Shown here piece after piece: positions 28,192-56,660 of a DNA stretch of 64,000 bases; the stretch's first letter is position 1; each line of letters begins with the position of its first letter. The notes below the pieces were generated by a model that did no database searches, was not told the DNA's origin, and was given only the letters and a program-made list of their open reading frames with translations. The stretch is from Mucilaginibacter sp. KACC 22063 (lineage in GTDB: Bacteria > Bacteroidota > Bacteroidia > Sphingobacteriales > Sphingobacteriaceae). The DNA is taken from NCBI RefSeq assembly GCF_028736115.1, contig NZ_CP117877.1, positions 558,001-622,000 of the forward strand, written 5' to 3'. A program made the translations under genes and the position numbers.

Positions 28192-28321
28192 CAGTAAATC
28201 GGTTATTGAATTGATTTTTGATACATATATTAATTAACAGGCTTAAAATAGTAAAAGTTTATGATGCAAACTGTAGTTGTTATAATAAACAACCATTTTG
28301 TTAAAAGCTGACAAACTGTCA

Positions 28322-28349
28322 TTTGTTCAGAATATTTTATTTATTTTTG
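28322..28349 (+). promoter_or_regulatory. Promoter of miaB
   Basis: TTTG at 28322-28325 and TATTTTTG at 28342-28349, 16 bases apart, match the Bacteroidota -33/-7 pair. They lie inside the upstream part of the reading frame, showing that translation starts further down, at 28370. Confidence 0.65.
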
Positions 28350-28369
28350 CAAACATTTTATTTTATACA

Positions 28370-29863
28370 ATGATGGATTTTGTTGTTCCGGATAAAGCGC
28401 ATGATGAGAGCAGGCAGGGCGAGGCTTTAATGCTGGAAACCAAGGCTGATAAAAGCGGACGTAAGCTATATATTGAGAGTTATGGCTGCGCCATGAATTT
28501 CTCTGACAGCGAGATTGTTGCGTCTATTTTATTAGATAAGGGTTTCGAAACCACTAACGATTTTACAATTGCTGATGCAATTTTTATTAATACCTGCTCT
28601 ATCCGTGAGAACGCAGAAGTGCGCGTTCGTAACCGGCTGAAAGAGTTTAAGGTTGCCAAGCAACGCAACCCCGGCATGGTAGTAGGTGTACTGGGCTGCA
28701 TGGCCGAGCGCCTTAAAGCGAAATTTTTAGAAGAAGAAAAACTGGTAGATATTGTGGTAGGTCCAGATGCTTACCGTGATTTACCTAACCTGATTGAACA
28801 GGCCGATGGCGGCCAACGTTCGGTTAACGTATTGCTATCGCGCGAGGAAACTTATGCAGATATTAATCCCGTACGGTTAAATACAAATGGCATCAACGCC
28901 TTTGTATCCATTATGCGTGGCTGCGATAACATGTGTTCATTCTGCGTGGTGCCATTTACCCGTGGTCGCGAGCGTAGCCGTGACGCACACTCCATCGTTA
29001 AAGAATGTACAGATCTGTTTAATGCAGGTTACCGCGAAGTAACTTTATTAGGCCAGAATGTTGATTCATATAAGTGGAAACCTACCTCTCCCCAGCCCTC
29101 TCCGGAGGAGAAGGAGCTTGGTGAACAACCAGGACAATCAAAAGTCCTCCCCCTCGGGGAGGATTTAGGAGGGGTCGTCAACTTCGCCAATCTGCTCGAA
29201 ATGGTAGCACAGATCCATCCTGATCTGCGCGTACGTTTCTCTACTTCGCATCCGAAAGATATTACTGACGAAGTGTTGTACACCATGAAAAGGTACGACA
29301 ACATTTGTAAATATATTCACCTGCCGGTACAATCAGGTAATACCCGGGTACTGGACATCATGAACCGTACTTATACCCGCGAGTGGTATATGAACAGGAT
29401 CGATGCCATCAGGCATATTTTGCCGGGTTGCGCTATATCTACCGATATAATTACCGGATTTTGTACCGAGACCGAAGAAGAGCATGCCGAAACCCTGAGC
29501 ATGATGGATTATGTGAAGTATGATTTTGCTTACATGTTTATGTATTCTGAACGCCCGGGTACATTAGCTGCAAAACGCTATGCCGACGATATTCCGGAAG
29601 ACGTAAAAGCGCGCCGCCTGAACGAAGTAATTGCTAAACAACGTGAGCATGCGCATTTACGATTATTGGAAAAAGTAGGCACCGTACAGAAAGTGTTGAT
29701 TGAAGGCTACTCAAAAAAATCGACCAACGACTACTGCGGCCGAAGCGACGAAAATTCAATGGTGATTTTTCCGGTAGACGAACGCTTTAAACCAGGCCAA
29801 TATGTAAATGTATTGGCAGACCGTTGCACAACAGCAACGCTACTGGGTAGAATTGTTGAATAG
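28370..29863 (+). CDS. miaB: tRNA-2-methylthio-N6-dimethylallyladenosine synthase MiaB with an in-frame repeat insertion
   Basis: A 497-residue methylthiotransferase that adds the methylthio group to i6A37 of tRNA. It has the N-terminal UPF0004 domain with three cluster cysteines ([25 protein letters not shown]), the radical SAM motif CDNMCSFC, and a C-terminal TRAM domain. The start at 28370 is preferred because the promoter overlaps the upstream TTG at 28298. Residues 239-269 are a 31-residue insertion encoded by a palindromic DNA repeat, placed between the conserved LLGQNVDSY and NFANLLEMV, so probably a surface loop. All catalytic motifs remain, so the enzyme should work. It heads a conserved run leading to groEL. 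Confidence 0.95.
29084..29175 (+). repeat. Palindromic repeat element inserted in frame within miaB
   Basis: About 92 bases with three nested hairpins. The outer ends ACCTCTCC (29084) and GGAGGGGT (to 29175) pair with one wobble; a first inner hairpin is built around CCCTCTCCGGAGGAGA; a second, TCCTCCCC-CTC-GGGGAGGA at 29145-29163, is perfect. Encoded peptide begins [14 protein letters not shown]. Composition (CTCCCC/GGGGAG) is unlike the rest of miaB. The architecture resembles dispersed intergenic palindromic repeats of Sphingobacteriaceae. Confidence 0.7.
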
Positions 29864-29869
29864 TTTTTA

Positions 29870-29900
29870 GATACAAGAAACAAGAGCCGAGAAACAAGAC
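29870..29900 (+). repeat. ACAAGA-rich low-complexity repeat, left flank of four-helix gene
   Basis: A purine-rich run of ACAAGA and GAGAAACAAGAC-type units. Its approximate reverse complement (TCTTGTCTCTTGTTCTGG) follows the small gene, so the gene is bracketed by imperfect inverted repeats. Confidence 0.55.
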
Positions 29901-29926
29901 CTTTAATAAAGCATAATTTTAAGAAC

Positions 29927-30277
29927 TTGAAAGTATGGCAAAAGGCGATGTATCTTACAGATTTAACATATAGCTATTGCAAGGACTTACCAGCCGACGA
30001 AAGATTTAATTTGATTGATCAGATTAATCGCTGTTCGGTTTCAATAGCTTCGAATATTGCCGAAGGATCTGGAAAACGCACAAACACTCATAATGCTGAG
30101 TTTTTGTCAACGTCTTTAAGTTCATCATATGAGTTAGAGACACAACTTTTAATTTGTAGAAGAAGGGGCTACGGGCACAGTGACAAATTAGATAACTGCT
30201 TACAATTATTTGATGAAGTTCAAAAAATGATTTTTGCATTTCGGGAACACGTAATTAATAAAGCTGTTATATCTTAA
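29927..30277 (+). CDS. Four-helix-bundle protein (S23 / 23S rRNA intervening-sequence type)
   Basis: A 116-residue helical protein with the family signatures LKVWQKAM, QINRCSVSIASNIAEGSGK and SYELETQL. Relatives occur inside intervening sequences of 23S rRNA genes or alone; their function is unknown. The annotated start is a TTG. In the same frame the conserved family N-terminus continues upstream as KHNFKNLKVWQ, preceded by ATA (29906) where relatives have ATG, so the original start may be lost, or ATA/TTG may be used. It is flanked by imperfect inverted ACAAGA-type repeats and sits inside an otherwise conserved gene run, which suggests insertion. Confidence 0.8.
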   Translation: MKVWQKAMYLTDLTYSYCKDLPADERFNLIDQINRCSVSIASNIAEGSGKRTNTHNAEFLSTSLSSSYELETQLLICRRRGYGHSDKLDNCLQLFDEVQKMIFAFREHVINKAVIS

Positions 30278-30310
30278 TCTTGTCTCTTGTTCTGGTCTCT
30301 CGCTTCTTAA
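30278..30310 (+). repeat. TCTTGT-rich low-complexity repeat, right flank of four-helix gene
   Basis: Pyrimidine-rich TCTTGTCTCTTGTTC, the approximate reverse complement of the repeat at 29870-29900. It ends shortly before the start of the sigma-54 activator gene. Confidence 0.55.
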
Positions 30311-30325
30311 TTCTGCATCTGCATA

Positions 30326-56636: not shown

Positions 56637-56640
56637 CTAA

Positions 56641-56660
56641 ATCCTCCCCTTTAGGGAAGG
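56641..56660 (+). repeat. Short CCTCCCC-type repeat remnant
   Basis: ATCCTCCCCTTTAGGGAAGG: a small hairpin of the same TCCTCCCC/GGGGAGGA type as the second hairpin of the miaB element, between the sod stop and terminator. Confidence 0.4.

Follow-up and report, generated by a model that had tools for sequence, protein, structure and literature searches.

In-frame palindromic insert in miaB of a Mucilaginibacter genome as a candidate miniature of a nuclease-bearing palindromic element

INTRODUCTION

Three described systems come closest to the sequence arrangement examined in this report. Repetitive extragenic palindromes (REPs) are short hairpins, each with an unpaired tail, that are dispersed, mostly intergenic and often joined as inverted pairs (BIMEs), and a gene flanked by such units, encoding a RAYT, is the presumed mover. 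RAYTs are thought to move REPs, and a homing endonuclease copies its own gene. One survey uses GTAG and CGTC tags to define two REP superfamilies, and lists intragenic REPs of 20-30 codons in genes for tRNA synthetases, TruB and repair in several species (PMC3733652). Rickettsia palindromic elements (RPEs; summarized in PMC10969869) and these intragenic REPs are palindromic inserts of some 20-50 codons that lie in frame in conserved genes, including those for TruB and tRNA synthetases. Finally, Vsr-like or EDxHD homing endonucleases (solved example, 3r3p) are nucleases found inside conserved genes, and PMC9403480, in its treatment of inteins, labels a DUF559 gene of Thermosynechococcus an EDxHD homing endonuclease.

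The palindromic insert in the miaB gene of Mucilaginibacter sp. KACC 22063 resembles each of these systems in part. Its units are REP-like in size, dispersal and pairing, but they carry no consistent GTAG or CGTC tag, no Y1 transposase was found in the genome, the proposed partner is a Vsr-like DUF559 nuclease, and the complete elements lie in frame within genes. It is likened to RPEs by description rather than by sequence; the phylum is different, and a nuclease-bearing complete form goes unmentioned in the accessible part of PMC10969869. Related nucleases are shared with the homing systems, whereas here no intron or intein was detected, hairpins often flank the nuclease, and miniature palindromes are dispersed throughout the genome.

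An earlier note, made from the DNA alone, suggested that the insert might belong to an unrecorded class of repeat. Because the miaB repeat is a REP-like pair arranged as a BIME, and because intragenic REPs have already been catalogued (PMC3733652), that suggestion cannot rest on the in-frame position of the insert. In-frame REPs and RPEs are known; the unusual aspect is the full-length copies with a DUF559 nuclease inside conserved genes. Among the matches listed in a search of open-licence literature, no paper described the nuclease partner or palindrome-flanked or full-length in-frame DUF559 elements.

RESULTS

A composite palindromic insert in miaB

The window analysed is a 64,000-nt stretch of the chromosome, and the coordinates of its relevant features are collected in Table 1. 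Translation of miaB likely begins at the ATG at position 28370. The product retains C40, C76, C110, C185, C189 and C192, all of which are invariant in the MiaB alignment and which we take to be the cluster ligands. The reading frame remains open through the insert, as the earlier note had stated along with the retention of these cysteines.

Table 1. Features of the miaB region (window coordinates) and genes of the source genome that carry hairpin units
Feature	Position	Strand	Remarks
miaB, tRNA methylthiotransferase	28298..29863	+	Longest ORF; TIGR01574, 423.9 bits against a cut-off of 355.3
Composite palindromic insert (A-spacer-B) in miaB	29085..29174	none	30 codons
Unit A of miaB insert	29085..29118	-	Hairpin, tail at 5' side; covariance model 43.5 bits, E 4.9e-9 (whole genome)
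Spacer between units A and B	29119..29140	none	
Unit B of miaB insert	29141..29174	+	Hairpin, tail at 3' side; covariance model 51.7 bits, E 1.5e-11 (whole genome)
Genic units, miaB			2 units
Genic units, IcmF-type fused B12-dependent acyl-CoA mutase			4 units, one at 15.5 bits only
Genic units, LeuRS			2 units
Genic unit, TruB			C-terminal tail
Genic unit, RsmF			C-terminus; frame stops at unit end
Genic unit, metallo-beta-lactamase-fold protein			C-terminus; Pfam match just below cut-off
Genic unit, tRNA pseudouridine synthase gene			Weak match, 13.5 bits

The insert lies in frame between the MiaB blocks LLGQNVDSY and NFANLLEMV and consists of two related 34-nt hairpin units that are inverted relative to each other. 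Each unit has a short head, a stem of 8 bp around a 3-nt loop, and a G-rich tail of 11 nt. Unit A, which comes first, lies on the minus strand and unit B on the plus strand, and the outward-pointing tails close the structure. In the predicted folds, the perfect 8-bp stem with its CTC loop is accompanied by an inner stem that is imperfect, and the outer ends close the structure; these are the three hairpins that had been described from the sequence. As RNA, the fold is stronger than those of shuffled sequences (z -3.2; 1 of 200 shuffles equally good), and as DNA it is only mildly stronger (z -1.9; 6 of 200). The size originally given, 92 nt and about 31 codons, is corrected here to 90 nt and 30 codons; compared with the short loops of approximately 8 amino acids in relatives (e.g. 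KWSNEEGT at locus L134), about 25 codons are gained. In the AlphaFold model of MiaB, residues 251-266, which belong to the insert (about 238-268), have pLDDT values under 50, and the blocks before and after the insert average 75 and 95, respectively.

Both units have close counterparts elsewhere in the genome. Unit A is 88% identical to the unit located upstream of a nuclease domain in the gene for the fused mutase IcmF, and this unit and the one in RsmF are jointly its nearest relatives among 83 other units. Unit B is 82% identical, in the same frame, to the IcmF unit KVLSFGEDLGEA downstream of that nuclease, and its nearest relative is the TruB unit (91%). The miaB insert looks like a miniature, nuclease-less form of a larger element.

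Several further observations concern the insert and its surroundings. The spacer peptide QPGQSKV resembles by eye the C-terminal linker of the nuclease, QQPERKV, a likeness too short to be of use, and the blastn matches of the spacer elsewhere (L022-L024) look like chance. Directly behind miaB, at window positions 29863-30315, is an ORF of 116 amino acids of the four-helix-bundle type associated with 23S rRNA intervening sequences (PF05635). This ORF is flanked by the short inverted runs AACAAGAGCCGAGA and TCTTGTCTCTTGTT, which are 86% complementary, and it may be another repeat-flanked unit. The sole other unit candidate in the window is a weak partial match on the minus strand at 56637-56660 (15.3 bits, E 1.9).

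A family of hairpin units dispersed in the genome and the phylum

The earlier note took the whole 92-mer as the repeat to be sought throughout the genome. The exact 92-mer was found a single time, and the best other match spanning the insert has 72% identity (E 8e-8); the 92-mer was thus the wrong unit, and the entity that recurs is the 34-nt unit. A covariance model was built from ten units chosen from the source genome, in which 97.5% of stem cells pair, compared with no more than 71.3% once one side is shifted. Searching the genome with this model returned 107 matches at E<=10. As 22 of them overlap a match on the other strand, 85 places remain, of which 55 reach E<=0.001. These counts are lower bounds, since scoring covered only 150 of the 1053 first-look candidates, and some of the places with E from 0.001 to 10 are weak. 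All but the partial 15.3-bit match within the window were carried forward (84 of 85). The original view that a dispersed palindromic repeat has entered a coding gene in frame, in the manner of RPEs, is correct, and the host does belong to Sphingobacteriaceae; its genus includes M. phyllosphaerae.

Neighbouring units separated by no more than 80 nt form 20 pairs, of which 17 are arranged minus/plus with tails outward and three minus/minus, with neither plus/minus nor plus/plus pairs present. The miaB composite therefore has the usual form. Units of 34 nt in tens of places, 72 of 84 outside scored ORFs and mostly paired in one inverted orientation, agree with the REP description of 20-40-nt, multicopy, mostly intergenic sequences forming inverted dimers. 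The REP tags are not a feature of the family: counted anywhere in the unit, GTAG occurs in 2, CTAC in 8, CGTC in 0 and GACG in 1 of the 84 units. Among 118 Bacteroidota genomes, 25 have a unit match at E<=1e-6, and the highest counts are in a congener (G138), a member of another family (G131) and the source genome.

The comparison of genic with intergenic copies that the earlier note proposed gives 12 of 84 units in seven genes (Table 1), picked by eye with ORFs scored by codon usage trained on the window rather than by annotation. Five of these seven genes act on tRNA or rRNA. Predicted translations remain open through the units in miaB, IcmF, LeuRS, TruB and the metallo-beta-lactamase-like gene, as is expected of RPE-like in-frame palindromic inserts in conserved genes. 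Furthermore, four plus-strand B-type units (at 88971 and in miaB, IcmF and TruB) share one frame, K-V-L-x-x-G-E-D-L-G.

Two features of the distribution can be recorded separately. The region from 1.9 to 3.8 Mb, 40% of the chromosome, holds only 7 of the 84 carried-forward places, possibly an origin/terminus effect. At five loci (L015, L017, L026, L027 and L028), part or all of a second repeat, CGTCATTGCGAGG...GAAGCAATC / GATTGCTTC...CGCAATGACG, stands beside hairpin units, and this second repeat looks like a described CGTC-type REP.

Occupancy of the miaB loop in relatives

The loop that holds the insert varies from 3 to 60 amino acids among relatives. It is short in the solved MiaB structure 7mjv, and loops of 3-15 amino acids without a repeat are seen in relatives such as those at L113, L117, L134 and L148. 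An A-B pair occupies the loop at other loci, for example L035, L036, L039, L042, L109, L119 and L387, and single or eroded units are found in further members of Mucilaginibacter and its kin, M. phyllosphaerae (L110) among them with an insert that appears eroded (best unit E 0.08). The unit model matches the loop at E<=0.01 in 19 of 100 loci searched (from 110, with L179-L188 left out) and in 6 of 20 further loci, although some genomes are represented twice in these numbers (e.g. L038/L118, L035/L115, L111/L393 and L112/L390). The miaB loop also carries a unit or a pair in three lineages from outside the genus, Pedobacter sp. BS3 (L139), a Sphingobacteriales metagenome-assembled genome (L156) and a genome of another genus (G539, L384), and these seem to be separate insertions at the same site.

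Other repeats occupy the same position, including GGAAGTC-type runs (L034, L040) and AAGTTC runs (L051). In-frame unrelated repeats of this kind (GGAAGTC, AAGACTC, GGATTTC and similar) were noticed both in the miaB loop (also L038 and L385) and at the second LeuRS site described below (L274, L275, L278, L284). Alignment of the relatives' proteins thus makes the insertion visible against short loops, as had been anticipated, but several relatives carry single units, pairs or unrelated repeats. Unrelated DNA in the same loop of most relatives had been named as an argument against the original reading; it applies in half measure, since many relatives do have unrelated DNA or other repeats there. 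A nuclease was not found in the MiaB loop of any of 149 family genomes judged by frame length (largest 591 amino acids), with 20 loops read, including the five longest. The frames of 591, 573, 566 and 559 amino acids have loops of 10-20 amino acids, and the frame of 553 contains a 60-amino-acid unit pair.

Full-length elements inside IcmF and LeuRS

The earlier interpretation was partly supported, and it missed the full-length versions, in which a DUF559 nuclease lies inside a conserved gene. The IcmF gene of the source genome (chromosome positions 1058673-1062500, minus strand) carries a DUF559 domain (PF04480, E 1.2e-31) at residues 750-853, in frame within the mutase domain, whose Pfam match is split into two stretches. 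Unit A (SPQPSPKERE) and unit B bracket the nuclease in the same order and frame as in miaB. Where this protein has 199 residues, the solved IcmF 4xc6 has five.

The IcmF site is full, with palindromes and nuclease, in seven genomes (G000, the source genome, and G004, G008, G011, G012, G016 and G021), has A-B without the nuclease in one (G001), and is empty in six (G005, G006, G010, G014, G015 and G033). These states come from 23 loci, seven of which gave no pattern match, one of which (L198) was a wrong match and two of which (L193 and L348) are one place. For LeuRS, a simple peptide rule was applied to 19 genomes, namely 18 of the 24 LeuRS genomes, with six more distant ones left out, plus G023. 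Site 1 (WNYK / EYELSTMPG) is full in 2, carries the palindrome only in 5 and is empty in 12; site 2 (NWIGKSVG / VFTTRVDTIFG) is filled by the palindrome in 5 and by other sequence in 11, with 3 empty. Site 1 of the source genome holds a single unit (26.5 bits). Full elements also occur at LeuRS sites in other families, at site 1 in G038 and at site 2 in G029 and G037, and at these sites in further genomes.

Three states, empty, palindromes only and palindromes with nuclease, are therefore found in related species at both IcmF and LeuRS site 1, and LeuRS site 2 shows part of this series. A-B and A-DUF559-B blocks stand at the same codons of host genes in some relatives, open in frame, and short loops stand there in others. 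These occupied and empty sites support the interpretation of the blocks as insertions. The LeuRS host tree is poorly resolved within the genus and is unusable for counting gains. The second DUF559 gene of the source genome (L349, 4099814-4100131) is free-standing, has one internal TAG and is flanked by units whose tails point inward, unlike those of in-gene copies.

DUF559 hosts and flanking palindromes across Bacteroidota

PF04480 was detected in 33 of 41 genomes examined, and 27 of 94 matches, among those listed, lie in open frames of at least 300 amino acids. With a profile built from 15 in-gene copies, 395 Bacteroidota genomes were searched at E<=1e-30; 44 of them contain a total of 52 matching places, 38 in frames of at least 400 amino acids and 14 in frames below 200. 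For 16 proteins the host was named by Pfam. The hosts are IcmF, LeuRS (two sites), TruB, MetH, RecG, RecJ, a UvrD-type helicase, a SpoIIE-type phosphatase, restriction subunits of type I and Eco57I type, an M23 peptidase and, with the nuclease fused at the N-terminus, a HisA/HisF-family protein. The nuclease lies between two B12-binding domains in MetH, separates the two helicase domains of RecG and sits within DHH in RecJ. Further LeuRS, MetH, RecG and HisF hosts were assigned by eye. The restriction subunits could have reasons of their own for holding a nuclease. In five genomes of the Mucilaginibacter genus (L337, L339, L340, L344 and L345), the DUF559 frame continues in frame into the start of a putative HisF, as named by Pfam for L337.

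Palindromic flanks were sought as exact inverted matches of at least 12 nt between the 160-nt flanks on either side of DUF559. The first set contained 41 places, one without a usable flank; 20 had been picked mainly for long frames, 4 were IcmF and 17 came from the PF04480 listing. Such matches were found at 22 of 40 places versus 1 of 800 controls of the same geometry, and at 8 of the 16 places that had not been picked for long frames or IcmF. In a second set, 7 of 27 places were positive versus 0 of 540 controls. Among the places that failed (18 of 40 and 20 of 27), visual inspection shows hairpins on both sides of some (e.g. L334, L341 and L343) but not of others (e.g. L328 and L316). The flanking palindromes occur in several families and belong to different subtypes.

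Sequence core, phylogeny and selection of the nuclease

In the alignment of the 15 in-gene copies, D65, E76, D78 and H82 are invariant, and the lead-in to the domain is partly conserved. A Vsr-like core is predicted from PF04480 scores over the cut-off and from profile matches to the solved structures 3hrl and 3r3p, the latter, annotated as a 'mobile intron protein', at E 6.9e-6. Presumably 3r3p is the EDxHD homing enzyme I-Bth0305I.

A tree of 41 rows separates the nucleases from IcmF, LeuRS, RecJ, TruB and the phosphatase, as a single group (89/96), from the free-standing ones, with the HsdR and HisF copies elsewhere. In a tree of 68 rows, most in-gene copies fall within a 40-row group (99/95) that includes four free ones. 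Host-site labels on the nuclease tree (36 rows) require 6 changes, versus at least 19 in 200 shuffles, and in-gene versus free labels require 5, versus at least 16 in shuffles. Grouping by site could be plain vertical inheritance. The nucleases of TruB and of LeuRS site 1 in the family lie within the IcmF group (98/97 in the 41-row tree and 98/98 in the 68-row tree), whereas the LeuRS site 1 copy of G038 lies outside it, as do the scattered copies of LeuRS site 2. This distribution suggests that the nuclease jumps between host genes, in trees of which many inner forks are weakly supported.

Purifying selection acts on the nuclease in IcmF. In 21 pairs of IcmF nuclease copies, pN is 0.06-0.25 versus a pS of 0.70-0.93, and the three computable dN/dS values are 0.03, 0.11 and 0.13, the other 18 pairs having no ratio owing to saturated dS. 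Because pS is also high in the host stretch (0.55-0.92), the nuclease is old in IcmF, and the saturation of dS allows no finer dating.

DISCUSSION

We propose, with a probability of roughly 0.7, that the miaB insert derives, as a miniature, from a mobile, nuclease-bearing palindromic element whose insertions survive in permissive protein loops. The complete element would consist of unit A, a reading frame for a Vsr-like DUF559 nuclease and unit B, with tails outward, and the miniature of A and B. The nuclease may act in trans on hairpin units or on the target and thereby promote copying to new places, and miniature forms would arise through internal deletion. Insertions would enter widely, and within genes only those in frame in tolerant loops would persist. 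No splicing would be needed, as the element would be translated along with its host protein, in which it would form a loop that is either disordered or the size of a domain. The in-frame position is best explained by such survival, since only in-frame inserts in tolerant loops would be retained, and these loops gather unrelated repeats as well. Restriction to permissive loops would likewise account for the repeated refilling of the MiaB, IcmF and two LeuRS loops and the TruB tail, unrelated repeats included. That DUF559 drives the mobility is our inference. A nuclease-driven element with hairpin ends is proposed because a RAYT was not found in the source genome, Rfam and Pfam showed no intron or intein, and the nuclease profile reaches 3r3p.

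Alternative movers and origins have to be weighed against this reading. The hairpin pairs might be moved by another, lost or unrecognized activity, with DUF559 a passenger captured between two units, and the numbers lend this some force: the source genome has 85 candidate units versus two DUF559 matches, one with an internal stop codon, and most units are far from either. It is also possible that a unit pair came first and captured the nuclease afterwards. Yet matching palindromes of different subtypes flank DUF559 in several families, and the nuclease in IcmF has been kept by selection. A RAYT or IS200-like transposase as the mover was rejected, as PF01797 had no match at E<=0.001 in the source genome and was present in 5 of 14 control genomes. 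We therefore regard a mere passenger as distinctly unlikely. Site-specific homing, in which every nuclease lineage cleaves the insert-free allele of the gene that hosts it and is copied in by repair, with dispersed A-B units as decay products, is unlikely too, but it is a serious contender. The nucleases do group by host site, including four MetH copies (f20, f29, f50 and f61) that come together with two others inside their group (81/94), the profile matches a mobile-intron protein, and the Thermosynechococcus gene has been called a homing endonuclease. Homing to a single site, on the other hand, does not provide the movement to new sites that dispersed pairs in tens of copies require, and it sits poorly with the TruB and LeuRS copies that fall inside the IcmF group and those that fall outside.

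The remaining explanations fare worse. Domestication of the nuclease for the benefit of the host protein or cell, with the palindromes as scars, would fit the conserved domain, its partly conserved lead-in and purifying selection, but patchy presence among relatives and the many sites with A-B only make it improbable. A nuclease within a conserved gene recalls the homing endonucleases of group I or II introns and of inteins, which are removed from RNA or protein. Here the miaB insert is just 90 nt and the inserts read are open in frame; no Rfam match at the gathering score was obtained for catalytic intron RNA at seven loci, and no Pfam match to an intein/Hint domain in 16 scanned host proteins with a DUF559 insert. 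We therefore rejected introns and inteins and give them very little credence. That a fast-evolving loop acquired palindromes by chance, as its variable length might suggest, is practically negligible given the genome-wide E values of the two units and the fixed geometry of the pairs.

The tolerance of the loops by itself, judged from the unrelated repeats that they contain, accounts for much of the pattern. As for the phylum, we lean, if only slightly, towards a selfish family in which a Vsr-like nuclease resides between palindromic ends, in frame in permissive loops of LeuRS, MetH, IcmF, RecG, RecJ and TruB. Such a family would be translated without splicing, would be faithful to its sites with occasional jumps, and would shed dispersed miniature palindromes like that of miaB.

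If this reading is true, in-frame palindromic repeats, an oddity since the work on Rickettsia, would gain a plausible autonomous partner. The full-length copies also point to natural sites at which enzymes such as LeuRS and methionine synthase seem able to accommodate an entire additional domain. Two questions thereby become testable: what moves repeats of this kind, and how a nuclease can persist within conserved proteins without an intron or intein.
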